From Anaerobiospirillum sp. (GTDB taxonomy: Bacteria > Pseudomonadota > Gammaproteobacteria > Enterobacterales > Succinivibrionaceae): a stretch of 55,092 bases of DNA. A program made the translations under genes and the position numbers. Below, piece after piece: positions 32,047 to 50,641 of the stretch (position 1 is the first letter of the stretch; each line of letters opens with the position of its first letter). The notes beneath the pieces are model-generated. The model saw only the letters and a program-made list of their open reading frames with translations. It did no database searches and was not told where the DNA came from. The DNA lies in the NCBI GenBank assembly GCA_029258325.1, contig JARHZF010000016.1, positions 1-55,092 of the forward strand, given 5' to 3'.

Positions 32047-32835
32047 TTAAATACTATCCTCTTTTATAGGATATACAATTTTAGTATCTTCATAAACATA
32101 TGATAAAGCACTCTCTATAATAAGATTACTTTCTAAAACTACATTGTCTACAGAAAGTAAACCTCTCTCTTTTAAATTATTAAATATCTTTAAAAATCTA
32201 TTTTGACTATTAGTCTTTACAAGATAAATGCCTAAAATTCTTGACTTATTGTCCTTTACACCTGTTAAAACCAATAAAGGTATTCTCTTTTTTTTGTTTT
32301 TCTTATTTAAAGCACTAAAATAAACTTTATCAATAAAAAGATTTTCATATTGCTCATCTAAATCCCAAAAGATTTTATTTTTTTTGCAATAAAGATTAAA
32401 AGATCTATAAATATCAGAAATTTGATCTGTTGAAAATTCATCTTTGTAAAGATCAGATAAGAAGGTAAGACCATCTTTCTCTTTTAATTTTATAGAAAAC
32501 AAACCAAAAATCATCTCTAAAATGGCATCTATCTCCTTATTTCTCTTTTTAATAATAAAAGGATTAAAACTGCCATCCCTATCTCTTGGAATTTTTAATT
32601 CAATCTCACCAAAAGAACCTTTTATTTTCTTTTTTGTATAACCATTTCTTCTATTTAAGGTATTTTTTTCTATTGATGAATTTTTGTTATAACCTAAATG
32701 AATATCAAGCTCACATTGTAAAAGTGTGTGAAATGCATGACCTAAAAATGAATTAATAGCATCTAAACGTAGATTTCCATCTAGTGCTTGTTTATCTTTC
32801 TTTAGATAATAAGTTAAATTTTTAATATCCTTCAT
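32047..32835 (-). CDS. Truncated IS256 (mutator) family transposase, possibly domesticated
   Basis: A 262-residue protein matching the N-terminal two thirds of IS256-type transposases: RRNGYTKKKIKGSFGEIELK at about 63-82, IPRDRDGSF at 83-91, then IDKVYFSALNKK near 168 (first catalytic Asp) and LLSVDNVVLE near 228 (second Asp). Full-length enzymes have about 400 residues; the C-terminal part with the CxxH motif and the catalytic Glu is missing. The frame ends in a clean TAA followed at once by a terminator, and the sequence is strongly Lys-rich. No inverted repeats were seen. It is either a decaying remnant or a captured DNA-binding fragment. It has taken the place where ybaB-recR follow dnaX in E. 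coli. Confidence 0.72.
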   Translation of the reverse strand: MKDIKNLTYYLKKDKQALDGNLRLDAINSFLGHAFHTLLQCELDIHLGYNKNSSIEKNTLNRRNGYTKKKIKGSFGEIELKIPRDRDGSFNPFIIKKRNKEIDAILEMIFGLFSIKLKEKDGLTFLSDLYKDEFSTDQISDIYRSFNLYCKKNKIFWDLDEQYENLFIDKVYFSALNKKNKKKRIPLLVLTGVKDNKSRILGIYLVKTNSQNRFLKIFNNLKERGLLSVDNVVLESNLIIESALSYVYEDTKIVYPIKEDSI

Positions 32836-33077: not shown

Positions 33078-35612
33078 TTATTTTGTTTTTTTTATATCCT
33101 TATATAAAAATATATTAATGTTATCTACATTATTTCCAACCTTCTCAATAAAAGATCTTAAATACTTATTATCCTTTATCTTATTTCTAACATTTACAAT
33201 ATGGGCTAAATACTCACTCTCTGCATAACATTTTGGAGTATTTTGTAACTTGTCATTTACAAAATTAAACTCAATCTTTATCTTTTTACCTAAATAAGTA
33301 CTAAAACATCTCTCTAAATCCTCTAAAGCATCCTTACTATTTAAAATATTTCTATACTGTGTAGATGTAGTTAAAAGCCAATGACTATCATCATTGTCTA
33401 TATATGTTCTTGTACTATCTTCAAGTAAAGATAATATGTAATCTTTTTCAATATTGGCATTATAAATATCATGATACCAAGGATCTTTATTTATAACAGC
33501 ATAATAAAAATCATCTGTTGAAACTTGCTCTTTGCCCTTAAAATAAAAATCTTGTCTTTGCATAGCTTGTAAATCAACATTATTTGGCATAAATGTATTT
33601 TGTGGATTGCCATCTACTATTTGATTTTCATTGCTATCATAAACAATATCTATATCATCATAATTGCTATAACTTTCACTACTATCATAGTCAACATAGT
33701 CAAAATTATCCTCACTATTTATATAAGAATTACTCTCATCATAAACATTATCTTGACCTATGCTAGTATCAATAACATTATTTGCATTAGACTCAATACT
33801 ACTTGCTAGCAAAGTCTCGTCTATACTTTTTGTTGTAGCACTAGTAGCTACATCTTCTTTTAAAGAATTTAGAGTAGCAGAATTTATAGCAGTATGATTT
33901 TTAGCATCACTATTTTTAGCATTATGCTCTTTATCAAAATTCTCTATGTAATTATCAAAAGAACGTATACTATAAAGATTATTTTCTAAATTCTCTTTTC
34001 TACTATAATCCTTGTTTTTATCTAAATACTTAAATGGATCATCTTTTACATAGTTAATATTAGATAAAACATAACTACAAGTCTCATTGCTATTTGCAAT
34101 ATCCTTATACTCGTCTATTAAAGAATTTAAAAATTCTTCATTTATATCATTTTTATAAGGTTTAAAGACACCATCACTGTCAAATCTATCAAAACACTTT
34201 ATATCATAAAGCTTTTGTGTGCTAACTTTTGCAGCTTTTATAGCCTTATTAAAAGTAGTATGTAAACTCTCTTTCTTATTTAAAGAATCTTTAGCATCAT
34301 CTAAAACAAAATTAGTGCTAGCACTACTTTCTCTATTATCTAAAGCATCTAAACTATCTGTGCTAGCATTAAATTCATTATTTGCTAAATTATCATAACT
34401 ATCTACATAGTCATTAAGCTCATTTGAGACAAATTCATTGTCTAAACTAGATGTTGCCTCATAATTATCAAAGAGATCGTCATCATCAAAACTATTATTA
34501 GAGCTATTTAAAGCTTCTGTAGCAACAAAATTTAACTCTTTAGCTTGCTCTATTGCAGTCTCAATATCTATATTCTTATTAATTTCAGTATTATTGTCTA
34601 TAGCAAGATCTAAAGCATCATAAGCAACCTTACCTTGATTTATAGCAATATTAGTAATCTTACTAATTTGAGCTTCAAGACTATTTGTAATACTTTGCTT
34701 TGAGATAGGTGCTTTACTATTACTAAAGTCCTTATGCATATTATGCATTTCATTATTTAATAAATTTATATAGTCTTTAACTTCATCTAAATAAGAAAGA
34801 TAAGAATCATTTTCTACTTGTTTAATAAGCTCAATAGGTGCACTAAAACTCATACTATCAGTATTAAAGTTAAGAGCATTTTTATCTACTATATTGCTAC
34901 TATAATCAATAGTCTCAACCTTAGCTTTACTCTCTTCTTGTACATTTGCTTTTAATAAAGATATAGCATGACTTGCATCTTTTGCATTAAAATTATCCTG
35001 CTTTAAATCATCCTTAATTTCATCAAAATTCTCAGATGGTATAACTCCACCCATAGAATCAATTTGACTATCAGGATCTAATTGCACACCTAAATTATCA
35101 TATATATTATTTGATAGACTATCTTTAATATTAGCAATATTATTATCTTTAATCTCTTTATCTAAGGTATTAGATATATCATTAGCATTTAAAGCAACAT
35201 TATCTATATCAGTATTATTAAAAGTATCTAAAACCTCTTTTTTAGAGAGATTATTAGTATCATCATTTACATCTAATCCATTATCATGACTTATTAAAGT
35301 CTCATCTTGAGCTTTTAGAGTGTCATCTTTTAAAGGATGTAAAATCTCTTCTTTAGTATTTTCTATATTTAGATTATCTTTATCTAGATCTGCTTTATCT
35401 AAATCTTTTTGATTTAAATCTTCTTTATTTAGATTTTCTACATGTAGCTCTTTTTTATTTAGATCTTCTCTATCATCTAAAGCTATGGCATTTTTATCTT
35501 GTATAGATGCTATAGTCTCTATTTCATCTAAACTAAATATATTGCTATATAAAGTCTTTAAATTTTCAATGCCTGATACATTTTTCTCATTATCAAGAAG
35601 GTCTATCCAATC
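33078..35612 (-). CDS. dnaX: DnaX tau-specific extension, read in the -1 frame: long linker and domain V
   Basis: From the A10 run at 35613-35622 the -1 frame is open without a stop for 844 codons to 33078. I checked each triplet between 35610 and 35088. An initiation at the GTG at 35087 (669 codons) is the apparent gene, but no ribosome site supports it. About 700 residues are Asn/Asp/Ser/Leu-rich and low in complexity (for example DLNQKDLDKADLDKDNLN), surely disordered. The last ~144 residues match tau domain V, which binds the polymerase alpha subunit: INKDPWYHDIYN, then DSHWLLTTSTQYRNILN, then KKIKIEFNFVND, then NKIKDNKYLRSFIEK, parallel to the E. coli tau end (TDPWAAQV..., SSQRHLNNRG..., VELTIVEDDNP, IQTLRRFFDA). 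Joined to gamma the product would have 1215 residues, against 643 in E. coli. Confidence 0.8.
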   Translation of the reverse strand, partial: DWIDLLDNEKNVSGIENLKTLYSNIFSLDEIETIASIQDKNAIALDDREDLNKKELHVENLNKEDLNQKDLDKADLDKDNLNIENTKEEILHPLKDDTLKAQDETLISHDNGLDVNDDTNNLSKKEVLDTFNNTDIDNVALNANDISNTLDKEIKDNNIANIKDSLSNNIYDNLGVQLDPDSQIDSMGGVIPSENFDEIKDDLKQDNFNAKDASHAISLLKANVQEESKAKVETIDYSSNIVDKNALNFNTDSMSFSAPIELIKQVENDSYLSYLDEVKDYINLLNNEMHNMHKDFSNSKAPISKQSITNSLEAQISKITNIAINQGKVAYDALDLAIDNNTEINKNIDIETAIEQAKELNFVATEALNSSNNSFDDDDLFDNYEATSSLDNEFVSNELNDYVDSYDNLANNEFNASTDSLDALDNRESSASTNFVLDDAKDSLNKKESLHTTFNKAIKAAKVSTQKLYDIKCFDRFDSDGVFKPYKNDINEEFLNSLIDEYKDIANSNETCSYVLSNINYVKDDPFKYLDKNKDYSRKENLENNLYSIRSFDNYIENFDKEHNAKNSDAKNHTAINSATLNSLKEDVATSATTKSIDETLLASSIESNANNVIDTSIGQDNVYDESNSYINSEDNFDYVDYDSSESYSNYDDIDIVYDSNENQIVDGNPQNTFMPNNVDLQAMQRQDFYFKGKEQVSTDDFYYAVINKDPWYHDIYNANIEKDYILSLLEDSTRTYIDNDDSHWLLTTSTQYRNILNSKDALEDLERCFSTYLGKKIKIEFNFVNDKLQNTPKCYAESEYLAHIVNVRNKIKDNKYLRSFIEKVGNNVDNINIFLYKDIKKTK

Positions 35613-36724
35613 TTTTTTTTTTGGGGATTAAAGGCTAAAAGACGCAATAAGGTCATCTCAAAGCAAGTACGAGCATCTTGAGCTAATTCTAACTCTTTTA
35701 AACCCTCTAAAGTTATTTGATAGAAAAGTTGCAGTGAGTTTGGATTAAATAAATGAGCATACTTATTTAAAACACTATCCTCAAAAGTAAAGACAGACTT
35801 TGCTTTAGTACCTATTACTTGATATAAAGCAATATCATGCATTAAGATAGATAGCTCTTGTAATAAGTTCTTATAGTTTGGACTTTTACTTACTACATTG
35901 TCTAAAACATGAGCAAATTCATCTATATTAGACTCTGCAAGTAAATCTAAAATATCAACAAGTATCTTATCACCTACAGTACCTAACATAGATTGTACTG
36001 TGTCTTTTATAATACTACCATTGCCAAGAGCTATAGCTTGATCAGTTAGCGATAAAGCATCACGCATACTGCCACGACCTGCTCTTGCAATTAAAGATAC
36101 AGCCTCATTGTCATAAGGTATGTTTTCTTTAGTTGCAATCTTTATAATTTGACTTTCAATATCTTCTTTTGATAAAGATTTTAACTGAAACTGTAGTGTT
36201 CTTGATAAAACAGTTGTTGGTATTTTATGTGGATCTGTTGTAGCTAAAATAAATTTAAAATACTCAGGTGGCTCTTCTAAAGTCTTTAAAAGAGCATTAA
36301 AACTGCTTGTAGTTAACATGTGAACTTCGTCTATGATGTAGATTTTATATCTGCCATACATAGGTGGATATTGAGTATTTTCAAGTAATTGTCTTGTATC
36401 CTCAACCTTAGTTTGGGATGCACCGTCAATTTCAATTACATCTGTATATGTACCTTGAATAATACTTTTACAAGCCTCACATTCACCACATGGATGTGAG
36501 GACATACCCTTTTCACATTCTAAAGATTTAGCAATAATTCTGGCAATTGTTGTTTTACCAATACCACGTGTACCTGTTAGCAAATAAGCATGATGCAATC
36601 TATTTAAATCAATTGCATTAGCTATAGCTTCAAGTACATGCTTTTGACCTACAACATCTTCAAATGTTTGTGGTCTATATTTTCTTGCAAGTGCTAGGTA
36701 TTCGTCTCTTTTTTCAATTGCCAT
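35603..36724 (-). CDS. dnaX: DNA polymerase III clamp-loader subunit DnaX, short (gamma-like) form
   Basis: A 373-residue AAA+ ATPase of the sliding-clamp loader. Walker A GTRGIGKTT (51-59), zinc module Cys70, Cys79, Cys82, Cys85, Walker B IIDEVHML near 130, and VLSRTLQFQ near 173 (SRT in place of the usual SRC). Domain III, the collar, runs to about 365, and the frame then stops (NPQKKKIG, TAG) right at the A10 run. E. coli gamma has 431 residues and is made by a -1 shift away from tau; here the zero frame gives the short form and the shift gives the long one. apt lies 6 bases upstream as in E. coli. Confidence 0.95.
   Translation of the reverse strand: MAIEKRDEYLALARKYRPQTFEDVVGQKHVLEAIANAIDLNRLHHAYLLTGTRGIGKTTIARIIAKSLECEKGMSSHPCGECEACKSIIQGTYTDVIEIDGASQTKVEDTRQLLENTQYPPMYGRYKIYIIDEVHMLTTSSFNALLKTLEEPPEYFKFILATTDPHKIPTTVLSRTLQFQLKSLSKEDIESQIIKIATKENIPYDNEAVSLIARAGRGSMRDALSLTDQAIALGNGSIIKDTVQSMLGTVGDKILVDILDLLAESNIDEFAHVLDNVVSKSPNYKNLLQELSILMHDIALYQVIGTKAKSVFTFEDSVLNKYAHLFNPNSLQLFYQITLEGLKELELAQDARTCFEMTLLRLLAFNPQKKKIG
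35613..35622 (-). promoter_or_regulatory. A10 recoding site in dnaX
   Basis: Ten T on the plus strand, so CCCC-A10-GATTGG in the mRNA. Zero frame reads CAA AAA AAA AAG ATT GGA TAG; the -1 frame reads AAA AAA AAA GAT TGG. A slippery run like this allows ribosomal -1 slippage (A AAA AAG) or RNA polymerase slippage as in Thermus dnaX. I see no Shine-Dalgarno-like stimulator just upstream and no strong hairpin downstream, which leans toward transcriptional slippage. Confidence 0.75.
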
Positions 36725-37595: not shown

Positions 37596-38735
37596 TTAAA
37601 ATAACTTCATCTTAAGACTTAATTGAGAATAAATTAAAGATAGAAGATATAAGAAATCATCAAGCTGTTTTACCTCAATAGATTCATTATCTTTATGAGC
37701 ATCCTTAATACTACCAGGACCTAGTACAATACAAGGTCCATTTGCAGATAGAAAACCTGCTTCTGTACAATAATTTATACAATATGATTCTTTATTTGCA
37801 ACCTTCATTATAAAATCAATTGTATCTTTGTCATTACAATCAAAAAGATCTATATCATTATGTAATCTACCAATCTTATATTGTAATTTAGTATTAGATA
37901 AACTCTTTGCTATCTTAGTTAAATCATTATAGATTTCAGTTTCACTCTTACTTTTTATAGGTCTTGCATCAAATAAAATTCTAACATTATCACATACTGT
38001 ATTAACACTGTGACCACCTATAATCTTGCCTAAATTAATAGTAGGATATGGTACAGAAAATCTATGATCTGAAAAATTACTTTTATAATTTTCCTCTAAA
38101 TCCTCTATTGCCTTTACAAAAGGTACAATACCATTAATAGCATTAGAACCTTTTTCAGGATTAGATGAATGTATAGTTTTACCTAAAATATCAACATAAA
38201 GACCCATATAACCTTTAGCTGCAACTACAGGATAGAGCATAGTTGGCTCTGCAACTATACATAAATCATGCTTTAAAGGTACATTTTGTACATAGTTTAC
38301 AACACCTGACATTGTAGTTTCTTGATCTGCTGTTAAAAGCACTTTTAATGGTAATTTTGTCTTTTTAAAATTAGCACAAAAATCCATTACAACAGCTAAA
38401 AAACCCTTAGTATCAGTAACACCTCTACCTATTAATCTATCATCTGCATGATCAAGGATAAATGGATCATTTTTCCATTTTTCAATATTAAAACCTACAG
38501 TATCAGTATGACAAGTTAAAAGTAAACCACCATCTGTATCTTTATGTGTGCTTGCTAGTAAATTATATTTACCATCAAAGACCTTATATACACTAGTATA
38601 AAATCCTAAGGCATCAAAAAAGTCTTTAACATAACTTATTAAATTTGTATTACCATGATCTTTATTAGCCTCAAGAGAACTTATTGTATTAAAAGAAATA
38701 AGATCTGCAAGAATTTCTTTATAGCTTTGTATCAT
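37596..38735 (-). CDS. argE: Acetylornithine deacetylase homologue with general-base Glu replaced by Gln
   Basis: A 379-residue M20 metallopeptidase-fold protein, matching E. coli ArgE (383) along its length. The zinc ligands are kept: His76 (TCHTDTV), Asp108 (GVTDTKGF), Glu139, Glu163 (VAEPTMLYP) and the late His in GPGSIKDAHKDNE. The lid His (IHSSNP) is kept too. E. coli has ATADEETSMAG; here it is LTADQETTMSG, so the Glu regarded as general base is Gln138 (codon CAA, 38322-38324). In M20 relatives replacing this Glu removes activity. AAAGGA lies upstream of the ATG. It is divergent from argC across 702 bases. Confidence 0.88.
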   Translation of the reverse strand: MIQSYKEILADLISFNTISSLEANKDHGNTNLISYVKDFFDALGFYTSVYKVFDGKYNLLASTHKDTDGGLLLTCHTDTVGFNIEKWKNDPFILDHADDRLIGRGVTDTKGFLAVVMDFCANFKKTKLPLKVLLTADQETTMSGVVNYVQNVPLKHDLCIVAEPTMLYPVVAAKGYMGLYVDILGKTIHSSNPEKGSNAINGIVPFVKAIEDLEENYKSNFSDHRFSVPYPTINLGKIIGGHSVNTVCDNVRILFDARPIKSKSETEIYNDLTKIAKSLSNTKLQYKIGRLHNDIDLFDCNDKDTIDFIMKVANKESYCINYCTEAGFLSANGPCIVLGPGSIKDAHKDNESIEVKQLDDFLYLLSLIYSQLSLKMKLF

Positions 38736-39437
38736 AATAAAAATAATCCTTTTTATTAAAAATAAAATGTATAGGATTTAACTTTCTATCTTTTAAGTTG
38801 TTTTTAACTAAGCTTAAACTTTACAAAAAAGAATAAAAGAGACTTACATATTAAGTATATATAACTAATGTTAAGTCTTTGTATATTTTTTAATACTTTA
38901 TAGCAAAAGTCTAAAAAAAATATAAACTTTAAGCATTAGTTCAATTTTGCCTATTTTATAATGAGAATATATAAGTTTTAAAGCATATTTTTTATTTGTT
39001 TAAATGTATAAAAAAATATTTTTTTTAGTATGGTAAATTTAACATAAATAAAAAGTTAAATTTAAAAAAAATTAAATTAGTAAAAAATAAACAAAAGATA
39101 TACATAAAAAATAATAAAAATTATTATAATTTTTTGTATTTTTTTTTAAGGTTTTACTATAGAGTAGATTTATCTAAGACAATAGAAAAATAATTTTTAA
39201 CTTAAAATATAAATAAAAAGTTTACACTTTTTTTTTAAATAAATGATAAAGAACTAGCTACTTTTTCTACACTTTAAAAGTAAAAGTCTTTTTTTTTCTT
39301 TTATATAAGGCAATATTCATAATAATTTTTATGAATGTTTTATCTTTTTGATATATAATTTTGCATTTAAGATGTTTTACATAAATTTATTTGTTGTCTC
39401 ATTATTCTTATAAACAGTATAAGCAAAAGGATTTATT
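38736..39437. other. 702-base AT-rich divergent gap between argE and argC
   Basis: Very long runs of A and T, no reading frame worth naming. An inverted repeat ATTCATAA...TTATGAAT (39315-39336) lies about 100 bases before argC and next to a TATAAT (39354-39359). It has the ARG-box half-sites in the opposite order, so I do not call it an ArgR site. I found no TGAAT-N4-ATTCA element by eye. Confidence 0.45.
39315..39336 (+). promoter_or_regulatory. Inverted repeat, possible operator of argC
   Basis: ATTCATAA-TAATTT-TTATGAAT, perfect 8-bp arms. It ends where a -35 element would lie for the TATAAT at 39354-39359 (17 bases), so a bound protein would block that promoter. Confidence 0.35.
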
Positions 39438-40472
39438 ATGTTAGATGTTGTAATTATAGGAGCAAGTGGATATATAGGTTCTGAACTTGTTAAGAAATTG
39501 GCAAAACATGAAAAAGTCAATCTTCAAGGACTTTACGTATCAAAAGATAGTAAAGATGCTGATAAAAATATAAGCACTTTATACCCATGTTTACAAGGCG
39601 TTACAGATCTTTCTTTAACTCCTTTATATGATGAAGATGTAGAATCTATTGCAAATGATTGTGATGTTGTCTTCCTTGCAACAGATAGTGAAATAAGTGT
39701 TAAATTAACCCCTATTTTCTTAGAACATAAATGTTATGTTTTTGATCTATCTTCTGCATTTTATATAAATGATATTGATGACTTTAAAGCAAGATTTAAG
39801 CTAGAAGATAATGATGAAGAAAATACTATAAATTATGAGGATATACTAAATAAAGCAGCTTATGGTATAAGTGAATGGTGTGATATTTTATCAGTACAAC
39901 AATCTCATTTAATTTCCATACCATCTCCTTATGCAACAGCAAGCCATATTGCTCTAAGACCTCTTTTAGATAGTAATTTACTTGATCTTGATTATAAACC
40001 ATCAATAAATGCTATAGCAGGTGCTTCTATTTTAGGTAGACGTGCAAGTCTTGATAACTCTTTTTGTGAAATTAGTTTAAAAGCTCAAGAACTATTTAAA
40101 CATAAAGATTTATTTGAAATTAAATACCACTTAAATACAGGTGTTATTTTAAATTCTCATATAGATAGCTTTAAAAGAGGTCTTTTAACAACTATTACAG
40201 CTAAATTAAATAAAAAATTAGATTATGATAGTGTAAAAGAAATCTTTATTGATGCTTATAGAACATGTCCATTAGTACGTGTGCAAGATAATCTACCATC
40301 AATTGCTGATGTAGAAAATACACCATTTTCAGCTATAGGCTTTGAAGTTGATGAAGATGGATATATTGTAATTTCATGTGCCTTAGATAACCTTCTAAAA
40401 GGTGGTGCATCACATGCAATTCAATTAATGAATCTATACTTTAATTTAGAAGAAACTCAATCTATTATCTAA
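39438..40472 (+). CDS. argC: N-acetyl-gamma-glutamyl-phosphate reductase homologue lacking the catalytic Cys
   Basis: A 344-residue protein that aligns end to end with E. coli ArgC (334), from IIGASGYIGSELVKKL to NLLKGGASHAIQLMN and ETQSII. The active-site Cys of this family lies in PGCYPT; here the sequence is IPSPYATAS, so position 164 is Pro (codon CCT, 39927-39929) with no Cys within the loop. The substrate-binding Arg of DLSGAFR is Tyr (DLSSAFY). The later His (SHIDSFKRG) is kept. The nucleotide-binding Gly motif is intact. AAAGGA precedes the ATG. The protein is complete, so it is under selection as a whole or only recently inactivated. ArgB and ArgH are not nearby. Confidence 0.88.
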   Translation: MLDVVIIGASGYIGSELVKKLAKHEKVNLQGLYVSKDSKDADKNISTLYPCLQGVTDLSLTPLYDEDVESIANDCDVVFLATDSEISVKLTPIFLEHKCYVFDLSSAFYINDIDDFKARFKLEDNDEENTINYEDILNKAAYGISEWCDILSVQQSHLISIPSPYATASHIALRPLLDSNLLDLDYKPSINAIAGASILGRRASLDNSFCEISLKAQELFKHKDLFEIKYHLNTGVILNSHIDSFKRGLLTTITAKLNKKLDYDSVKEIFIDAYRTCPLVRVQDNLPSIADVENTPFSAIGFEVDEDGYIVISCALDNLLKGGASHAIQLMNLYFNLEETQSII

Positions 40473-44831: not shown

Positions 44832-45518
44832 TTACTTTAATAAATTCTTACGCTTAATATCTACACAGAAACTAAAATTACTCTCTTCCATAATATCAAA
44901 TAAAGATGGAGAGCCATTTTCTACAGCATAATCTAATTCTTCTTTATAAAGTGGTATTACTTGTAAAAATTGCACACTACCCTCATCTTCGCTAATATCA
45001 CAATAATGAGCTTTATAAGCATCATCGTCATCTAATGGAAAATAATCTTGTAAAAAGTCTAAAACAACACCTGAAAACTTGGTATTACCATAAAAATCCT
45101 CATTATCAACAGTATGTGTTGGTGCAAGGAAAGTATCACAATATATAGGTAGATGGGCTAAATTCTTTAATAAACGTATAGGCCAATAATTACTTTCATC
45201 TTGCATGGCTTCTTCACTAAAATCCCATGTAGCTGGTAATGTAATTGCAAGTTCTATACGTGGACAGACACTATCTTGAAACTTTTTTGGTATATCCATA
45301 AGATATGCACCCATACCTAAGGTTGTTACTGTATAGTGATTTCTACCATTAGCTGGTGGCACAATAATAATATCTACATGAATGTCCTCAGATACAATTT
45401 CATGAAAAACAGAATCAAAAGAACCTATATACTCTCTTATATGATTTTCAACTACCCTCATCTCATCTTCAGAGTAAAGATATAAAACGCCATCTCCATT
45501 ATCTACAATATCTACCAT
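44832..45518 (-). CDS. Suppressor of fused (SUFU) domain protein
   Basis: A 228-residue protein matching bacterial SUFU-domain proteins: VENHIREYIG near 22, VFHEIVSEDIHVDIIIVPP near 37-55, HYTVTTLGMGAYLMDIPK near 61-78, RIELAITLPATWDF near 85, YWPIRLLKNLAHLP near 109, and the conserved HTV near 133. No catalytic residues are known in this family; in bacteria it is often an immunity protein in polymorphic-toxin loci, and this one follows the LRR/ankyrin-like gene by only 9 bases. No toxin is adjacent. Role in toxin neutralisation is inferred from the family. Confidence 0.85.
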   Translation of the reverse strand: MVDIVDNGDGVLYLYSEDEMRVVENHIREYIGSFDSVFHEIVSEDIHVDIIIVPPANGRNHYTVTTLGMGAYLMDIPKKFQDSVCPRIELAITLPATWDFSEEAMQDESNYWPIRLLKNLAHLPIYCDTFLAPTHTVDNEDFYGNTKFSGVVLDFLQDYFPLDDDDAYKAHYCDISEDEGSVQFLQVIPLYKEELDYAVENGSPSLFDIMEESNFSFCVDIKRKNLLK

Positions 45519-47450: not shown

Positions 47451-47612
47451 GTCAAGTATCCTTCTACTTTAATTTTCTTTTACTTTATCTTAACATTTAT
47501 ATAAGCTTAAAATGTGATTTATATCAAATGATTATATTAATTTCCCTATAAATAAGCTTTTTATAAACTATATCCTTTATCAAGGATCTAACTAGATTAA
47601 AAAGGAGTGTAT

Positions 47613-48896
47613 ATGACTAAGCACACAAGTATAAACTATCAAATACTCACTCCATTTTTTCAGCAAGAAGATTGCTTTAAAGCTATTTTTCCTGCCTTTA
47701 AGGTAAAAGGTATAAAAGATTACAATTTAAACTATTTTAAGCTACAAGATCCTTCTTTTAAACTTGAACTTTACCTCTTATCTAGTTTTAGATGTGAACA
47801 ATATGATAAGGATGAAGATTATTATGCATCTAATGAGGATGATGCAAAAGATGATGTGTATGATGAAGATAGTCATTTACAAATAGATAGCTTAAATACA
47901 AGATTAAAAGATATTTTTAACTACTTTTATAGTCTAAAAAAAGTAGATAAAAGTCTTTTACATAATGTTTTACAACATCTAAACATGTGTATAAGCATTG
48001 TTAATGTAAACATAATATACGATAAAGATATATCTTATGATAAAAAGGAGATGTTAAAATCTCAAATTTTTGCTTCAACATTAGCTCTTAAAGGTTTATT
48101 ACTTACAGAAGATAAATCCCTATTTACAGGAGATAATAAGCTTCTTCTTGATAAAGATGGTAATAGTAGCTATAAGAGCTATAAAGCACCCAAACTTGAT
48201 ATTGATAAAGATTTAGGGGCATTAAATCCATCTAGTGCTAAATTACGTAAAAAGACTATAGATTATTGCTATGCACAAGATATTTGTCTAGGTTCATGCA
48301 TTCCTTTATTTGAAAAAGGAAGAACACGTAGGCAAAAACATGATGCTGTATGTAAAAGAGCTCTAGCTATATTAGCTTTAGCCTTACTTGGAGATTGTCA
48401 TATAAATAAAGAAATGTCTTATAAAAAGTCTATGGACATTGTACAAGAACATGTTTTATCTAAATTTGATGCTAAAGCTTATATGACAAAAGAAGAGCTA
48501 ACATTCTTTAAAGATAAAAAGGATGAAGATGAAGACGGTTTACTATATGCTTTTGAGTATGAAACTCTCTATGTATTATTCTTTGCCCTCTCTTTATTTG
48601 ATGATGAGATTATGCCTCCACCAAGAGATAAAGTAGATCCAAAAATCTTTTTAGATAAACTAAAAGACTTTAAAGATATTGATGATTTTATAGCTAAAAC
48701 TAAGCTTATTGACAATAAGACATTAATACAAAATGCTGATGTATATTTTGCCTTATTTAATTACTCTTGCTCATTTTCTAATAAGAAATGTAGTGCAGAT
48801 GAAATTACTCATATTGTAGAGGATATTGTAGAAAAACGTTATGAAACTCTCTTATGGCTCTGTGGTATTGATAAATTTAGCATTATGTATATTTAG
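47613..48896 (+). CDS. DUF4272-like protein, degenerate paralogue
   Basis: A 427-residue protein. The ATG at 47613 has AAAGGAG at 47601-47607; a GTG at 47607 overlaps that site and is unlikely. It shares its plan with the next gene: a start T-x(2)-Y-x-I-x-TP(F/Y), an acidic region around 65-90, HLxMCxSIVNVNI near 122, LLLDKDGNS near 177, then the C-terminal DUF4272 part (LRKKTIDYCY, VCKRALAILALALL, YETLYVLFFALSLFDDEI). The motifs at the end that mark DUF4272 (HWACVDAR and ERH) are replaced by LFNYSCSF and EKRYE, and the final WD is absent. Probably a duplicate that has lost its function or changed it. Confidence 0.7.
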   Translation: MTKHTSINYQILTPFFQQEDCFKAIFPAFKVKGIKDYNLNYFKLQDPSFKLELYLLSSFRCEQYDKDEDYYASNEDDAKDDVYDEDSHLQIDSLNTRLKDIFNYFYSLKKVDKSLLHNVLQHLNMCISIVNVNIIYDKDISYDKKEMLKSQIFASTLALKGLLLTEDKSLFTGDNKLLLDKDGNSSYKSYKAPKLDIDKDLGALNPSSAKLRKKTIDYCYAQDICLGSCIPLFEKGRTRRQKHDAVCKRALAILALALLGDCHINKEMSYKKSMDIVQEHVLSKFDAKAYMTKEELTFFKDKKDEDEDGLLYAFEYETLYVLFFALSLFDDEIMPPPRDKVDPKIFLDKLKDFKDIDDFIAKTKLIDNKTLIQNADVYFALFNYSCSFSNKKCSADEITHIVEDIVEKRYETLLWLCGIDKFSIMYI

Positions 48897-49357: not shown

Positions 49358-50641
49358 ATGAGCGATAAATCAACTTTAAGGTATAAAATTTTTACGCCTT
49401 ATTATTATACAGAAGACTTTTTTAATTCTGTCTGTGAAGCTTTTGAAATGGATGAAGACGATCTTGATTTTAATAGTAGTCTTAATTTGCATACGAGAAT
49501 ATCTGATCTTAATCTTAACTTCTTATCAGAAGATATAATTGAAGATGATGAAGATGAAATTGCTCTTGAAATAAAAGAATATTTAAAAAATCAATTAAAT
49601 GGTGCTTGGTCTTATTTTAGAGCTATTGATGCAGATGATACTATCTTAATTAATGTTCTTCATCACTTAAAGATGTGTAGAAGTATTGTAAATGTTAATA
49701 TTAATTTAAAAAAACAAGATATAAGTGAAAAAGAAAAAAAAGACATCTTTAATGAAATAACATTATTAACAAAACATCTAAAAGGTCTATTATGCCCTAC
49801 TGTTGGTGTTTTAATTTCAGATGATGGTCTTGTTTTAGATCAAGATGGTAATAGTGATTTTGAAGTTTATATGCCTCCTAAAATGCCTATAAATGAAGAG
49901 TTTAAATCACAAAATGAATTTGGTGTAAACTTACGTAATAAGACTTTAGATTATTGCTTCTATAATGAAACCTATGTAATGACATATCTTCCTTTACTTG
50001 AAAATAAAGAAGAATATATGCAAAGTCATGAGAATGTATGCAAAAGAGCTATAGCTCTCCTTACTGTAGCATTACTAGCTGAATGTCGTTTAGGCGAAAA
50101 GATGTCTTATACTGAGGCTATGGATTTTGTATCAGATAAGATTTTATCTAATTTTGATGCTACATCTTATATGTCAGATGAAGAGCTTTCTTACTTTAGG
50201 AATGAAAACAGTACAGAACAAGATAGCATACAATATTCATGGCAATATGAAAACTTAGCTGTAATGCTTTTTGCCCTCTCTTTATTTGATGATGAGATAA
50301 ATGATATAGAAGATGATGAAGATATAGAGTTTAAAGATATTATGCCTTATCCATCTTCTATTGCACCTGTAGCTTTATGTGTTAGAAAAATACATACATG
50401 TAAATCATTAGATGAATTTATAAAAAGAACTAAGCTTAAAGACTACAAGACCTTAATGCAAAATGCTGATATTGCTTATGAACTACATTGGGCTTGCGTT
50501 GATGCTAGAATTATAGGCTTTAATTCAGATGATGTTATTTCAACTATAGAAGGTGTTGCACAAGAACGTCATAAATCATTCTTTTGGATTTGTGGTATTG
50601 ATGGTGAAAAAAATTGGGATAATGTTGAGTTATCAACATAA
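49358..50641 (+). CDS. DUF4272 domain protein
   Basis: A 427-residue protein; residues 190-427 match DUF4272: LRNKTLDYC near 192, VCKRAIALLTVALLAE near 227-242, SWQYENLAVMLFALSLFDDE near 294-313, DEFIKRTKLKDYKTLMQNAD near 352-371, LHWACVDAR at 376-384, ERH at 403-405, and NWDNVELST at the end. The N-terminal ~190 residues are specific to this pair. AAAGG precedes the ATG. No enzymatic role is known for DUF4272; members often sit beside toxin and immunity genes. Ends before a strong terminator. Confidence 0.85.
   Translation: MSDKSTLRYKIFTPYYYTEDFFNSVCEAFEMDEDDLDFNSSLNLHTRISDLNLNFLSEDIIEDDEDEIALEIKEYLKNQLNGAWSYFRAIDADDTILINVLHHLKMCRSIVNVNINLKKQDISEKEKKDIFNEITLLTKHLKGLLCPTVGVLISDDGLVLDQDGNSDFEVYMPPKMPINEEFKSQNEFGVNLRNKTLDYCFYNETYVMTYLPLLENKEEYMQSHENVCKRAIALLTVALLAECRLGEKMSYTEAMDFVSDKILSNFDATSYMSDEELSYFRNENSTEQDSIQYSWQYENLAVMLFALSLFDDEINDIEDDEDIEFKDIMPYPSSIAPVALCVRKIHTCKSLDEFIKRTKLKDYKTLMQNADIAYELHWACVDARIIGFNSDDVISTIEGVAQERHKSFFWICGIDGEKNWDNVELST

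Follow-up and report, generated by a model that had tools for sequence, protein, structure and literature searches.

Why does a bacterial genome carry an argE and an argC gene side by side, both of them open and both lacking a key catalytic residue? The initial annotation of this locus saw in the two losses a suggestion either of relaxed selection on arginine synthesis or of proteins remade for other work, for instance in binding or sensing. The window analysed here is the entire contig C124, 55,092 bp long. It comes from a draft genome of 2.6 Mb (222 contigs, completeness 94.8%, contamination 1.1%). The named relatives in genome_contigs point to Aeromonadales/Succinivibrio-like bacteria, and the genome is probably to be placed near these.

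We favour the reading that the two genes, here called argE2 and argC2, encode a pair of pseudoenzymes retained for a non-catalytic role, perhaps by joining the intact enzymes as subunits or as partners that bind ligands, and we give it a probability of roughly one half.

The gene pair and its surroundings

The positions of the two genes and of the residues discussed below are collected in Table 1. The genes point away from each other and are not co-directional, and Shine-Dalgarno-like AGGA runs are found 5' of both start codons. An Rfam scan of the whole window, including the region between the genes, gave no match, and promoter-like matches in that region were no more frequent than in shuffles. 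ARG boxes with up to two mismatches allowed were not found there either, and the whole window held no excess of them.

Table 1. Features of the argE2-argC2 locus, in window coordinates.
Feature	Position	Strand	Remark
argE2 (ArgE / M20 N-acetylornithine deacetylase paralogue)	37596..38735	-	379 aa; Gln138 replaces the general-base Glu; zinc ligands kept
Codon CAA, Gln138 (TADQET)	38322..38324	-	Opposite E. coli Glu144; the remaining ArgE in the family set have Glu
Intergenic region argE2/argC2	38736..39437	.	702 bp, divergent, 15% G+C
argC2 (ArgC paralogue)	39438..40472	+	344 aa; catalytic Cys and most substrate-site residues gone; GASGYxG and DNLLKG kept
PSPYA (residues 162-166) for PGCYP	39921..39935	+	Pro164 at the catalytic Cys position
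AGASIL (194-199) for SGVTGA	40017..40034	+	GAG substrate-channel motif becomes ILG (198-200)
HKD (222-224) for HRH	40101..40109	+	Phosphate/carbonyl-binding motif

The genes near the pair are dnaX, apt, a PiT-like transporter gene and corA, none of which names a pathway. A Mutator-family transposase ORF of 262 aa lies close by (32047-32835, minus strand). In dnaX a run of ten A (35613-35622, minus strand) stands directly 5' of the stop codon that closes the gamma-like frame (373 aa), and a second frame is open from this run into a 669-aa ORF (33078-35087) with a weak match to tau domain V; the run resembles the frameshift or slippage site that is usual in dnaX, or else a homopolymer error. Elsewhere in the window two tandem DUF4272 proteins are encoded at 47607-48896 and 49358-50641 (plus strand), with a SUFU-domain protein nearby (44832-45518). 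Domains of the DUF4272 and SUFU type are often found among polymorphic-toxin immunity genes.

Intact arginine genes in the same genome

A search for further copies of argC and argE and for argB and argH, as proposed in the initial annotation, recovered intact argE, argC and argB on contig C115 and argH on contig C151. C115 additionally carries argD and a gene for an argA-like GNAT acetyltransferase, and its argE and argC are divergent as in the window; argF and argG are found with argH on C151. The catalytic motifs of the C115 paralogues are intact (PGCYPT and HRH in ArgC, DEET in ArgE), and both enzymes are predicted from their sequences to be active. By gene content the arginine pathway is complete, and because the genes on C115 and C151 are intact, arginine synthesis is not decaying. 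This contradicts the suggestion of relaxed selection on the pathway, and the canonical C115 cluster likewise rules out degeneration of a single-copy arginine route. As judged by comparison with C115, argE2 and argC2 stem from a duplication of the divergent argE-argC pair and have since diverged; their proteins share about 43% and 50% identity with the intact ones.

The intact argE is adjoined by a short ISL3-like transposase ORF (L068 6540-7058, minus strand). A search for the ArgR repressor family gave no match in the window genome (G000) or in two other genomes of the family (G001 and G003), with a search that does detect E. coli ArgR and others. Arginine control in the window genome may work otherwise than by ArgR; a link between this absence and argE2/argC2 is speculation.

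Active site of argC2

The segment IPSPYATAS covers residues 161-169 of argC2, and Pro164 (codon CCT at 39927) aligns with the Cys of PGCYPT in Shigella and Salmonella ArgC, the alignment being locally gap-free. The Arg of DLSGAFR is replaced by Tyr109 in DLSSAFY. Both changes had been read from the DNA in the initial annotation and are borne out, residues and positions alike, by the alignment; the extent of the loss had, however, been understated. Of 40 columns that hardly vary among 128 other ArgC, argC2 has lost 14; the intact paralogue on C115 has lost none and the next-worst sequence six.

The ArgC site described in Denitrovibrio comprises the Cys, an HRH motif binding phosphate and carbonyl, and a GAG substrate channel (PMC10170137). 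In HKD, the counterpart of HRH, argC2 retains the first His (H222) and has Asp224 at the third position. Ala194 and Gln217 stand at two further pocket positions, Gln217 in place of the channel Tyr. Of 10 published catalytic or substrate positions only 2 are kept, whereas 53 are kept among the 68 remaining positions of high conservation (Fisher p 0.0006), and each substitution is unique within its alignment. Among the commonest motifs listed for 53 ArgC from this genome and its relatives, PGCYPT is absent only from argC2, and GC[Y/F/I] is present in all 79 further ArgC from genome_contigs. As far as alignment can tell, argC2 has neither the Cys nor the greater part of the active site that thioester chemistry requires.

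These changes set argC2 apart from ArgC (TIGR01850; PDB 3DR3, 2G17, 8AFU), which it resembles in fold, length and NADP-binding motif. It retains the NADP-binding GASGYxG, FKRG and DNLLKG, and scores 247.6 bits with TIGR01850, above the equivalog cut-off of 233.6 (intact copy 368.0).

Active site of argE2

In M20 enzymes an E-to-Q change at the general-base position stops hydrolysis and can still permit substrate binding. The initial annotation had described exactly such a change in TADQET, together with retention of every zinc ligand, and alignment with E. coli ArgE agrees on both points. The five E. coli ligands given in PMC11270798 (H80, D112, E145, E169, H355) correspond to H76, D108, E139, E163 and H347 of argE2, and the replaced residue, E144, is the candidate general acid/base (PMC4320195). 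DQE was found only in argE2 among the commonest motifs listed for 40 ArgE of this genome and its relatives, and Gln138 is unique within its alignment.

Six more conserved residues are lost (G75C, P81G, L104R, M109T, G162A, H173A), and with Gln138 they distinguish argE2 from ArgE (TIGR01892; M20; PDB 7RSF, 8UW6), with which it shares the fold, the zinc ligands, the dimer domain and the divergent position beside argC. Its TIGR01892 score is 289.1 bits against a cut-off of 297.7, and the intact ArgE of the same genome is also below (293.0). We infer that argE2 is catalytically inactive, mainly from one codon.

Both losses could have been offset locally, by a Cys shifted into the argC2 active site or by a compensating Glu near argE2 Gln138, as the initial annotation had pointed out. 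Neither was found in the alignments and the losses stand.

Origin and distribution of the duplicate

A search of the other 55 family genomes, one of which is of the same genus, turned up no second argC, and every one of them with a match has a single argC; in one fragmented genome (G033) it is split over two contigs. A search of genome_contigs with argC2 alone as query gave no relative. Within the family the ArgC duplicate, with its predicted pseudoenzyme state, occurs in one genome only and so offers no comparison between species for conservation of that state.

In the tree, argC2 groups with the intact ArgC of its own genome within the genus (support 99/85; 98/81 with G001), on a branch of 1.68 compared with 0.83 for the intact copy. 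argE2 falls within the genus clade (support 99/99) and is not grouped with its own intact ArgE. Neither order of duplication and speciation could be rejected by AU tests (p 0.16, 0.07); the same holds for orthology between argE2 and the second argE that the same-genus genome G001 carries (p 0.41).

This second ArgE-like gene of G001 (L070 7684-8826, minus strand) has an intact DEES, adjoins a MetQ-like lipoprotein gene and lies far from argC; its product may deacylate another N-acyl amino acid. Additionally, an aspartate-semialdehyde-dehydrogenase-like protein (L004 1486-2481, plus strand) scores under all family cut-offs and apparently lacks the catalytic Cys motif (TPVSALT); we take it to resemble the USG-1-type paralogues.

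Selection and predicted structure

The main rival to a retained pseudoenzyme pair is slow decay, in which a redundant argE-argC copy has lost its catalytic residues and is drifting to pseudogenes, a stop not yet having been gained. Redundancy is provided by the intact copy on C115, and the ArgC duplicate is found in one species only. Furthermore, argC2 has evolved faster than the intact copy (Tajima relative-rate test with G001 as outgroup, p 0.002), and its constraint profile is flattened: retention of ancestral residues is 0.67 in invariant columns and 0.57-0.75 in others, whereas the intact copy retains 0.98 in invariant columns. The profile indicates that the old enzymatic constraint on argC2 is gone while frame and predicted fold persist. 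Flat retention is what is expected once the ancestral constraint is gone and therefore also fits decay.

Against decay, neither gene has a stop or frameshift, though 50-58% of residues differ from the intact copies; in this respect the frames are as intact as first described. When evolution without selection was simulated, starting from the intact copies and ending at 72-75% identity (25-28% protein divergence, which the real divergence exceeds), a mean of 5-11 stops per gene arose. A dN/dS analysis, suggested from the outset, rejected omega=1 over the whole window branch (2dlnL about 38 for ArgC and 32 for ArgE), this rejection being all that can be read from the fits, as synonymous sites are saturated and the magnitudes of omega are unreliable. 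The window-branch omega was indistinguishable from the background for ArgC (2dlnL 2.5); the free-omega fit for ArgE was incompletely converged, its lnL lying below that of the one-omega fit. A recent neutral phase may be contained within this whole-branch rejection.

The ArgC losses, moreover, focus on the active site and are not spread evenly across conserved sites, and both proteins are still predicted to fold. The models have pLDDT of 94.2 (argC2) and 89.8 (argE2). That of argC2 matches enterobacterial ArgC with a TM of 0.92, NADP-binding motif and semialdehyde-dehydrogenase fold being present, and that of argE2 matches E. coli ArgE with a TM of 0.87. On this balance we consider decay somewhat unlikely.

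We hold it unlikely to a greater degree that the two proteins are new enzymes with another chemistry or substrate, for example an NADP-dependent ArgC2 working without an acyl-enzyme or an ArgE2 with differently activated water. The kept NADP motif and zinc ligands would suit such enzymes, and the changes of GAG to ILG, Tyr to Gln and HRH to HKD could represent a reshaped pocket. However, a candidate new catalytic residue was not found, and the neighbouring genes point to no pathway. An artefact of sequencing, assembly or binning in a draft of 222 contigs is very improbable: Gln138 is a single base away from Glu (CAA vs GAA), but argC2 has 14 separate conserved-residue losses, the window and C115 are alike in low G+C and codon-position profile, and the sole apt and PiT orthologues of the genome sit on the window contig, so contamination is not supported.

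A possible role for the pseudoenzyme pair

Of the two explanations first offered, conversion to a binding or sensing role is the better supported, given the open frames, the rejection of omega=1, the kept NADP motif and zinc ligands, and the active-site focus of the ArgC losses. As retained pseudoenzymes, ArgC2 would amount to a shell that binds NADP, and ArgE2 would carry zinc and may take up N-acetylornithine but leave it uncleaved. The simplest task for them would be to act as prozyme-like subunits in partnership with the intact ArgC and ArgE. In the closed form of the ArgE dimer, by analogy with DapE, dimerisation-domain residues of one subunit come near the pocket of its partner (PMC11270798). 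Because of this reach, an ArgE2 subunit that is itself dead could still complete a live ArgE or regulate it.

There is precedent for prozymes in trypanosomes (PMC3663545, PMC5201418); deoxyhypusine synthase, for one, becomes 3000-fold more active through its dead paralogue (PMC3663545). As with the trypanosomatid AdoMetDC and deoxyhypusine synthase, argE2 and argC2 would each be a dead paralogue next to its live, oligomeric biosynthetic counterpart. The prozymes, in contrast, are eukaryotic, with complex formation and activation shown, whereas argE2 and argC2 are known from sequence and represent a joint change in two genes of a single pathway. A further and rather doubtful proposal is that dead-paralogue partners for two arginine steps were gained together through the argE-argC duplication and serve to tune or to sense flux (N-acetylornithine, NADPH), the genome having given no match to ArgR.

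An inactive paralogue beside an intact one is ordinary in kind; it is unusual that both members of a divergent pair have changed together. For annotation the locus is a caution, since argC2 passes the curated ArgC equivalog cut-off without the residues for the reaction, and an automatic pipeline would therefore list it among the functional enzymes. Should the proposed role prove real, this would be a case in which two enzymes from a core pathway of amino-acid synthesis gained pseudoenzyme partners as one unit.
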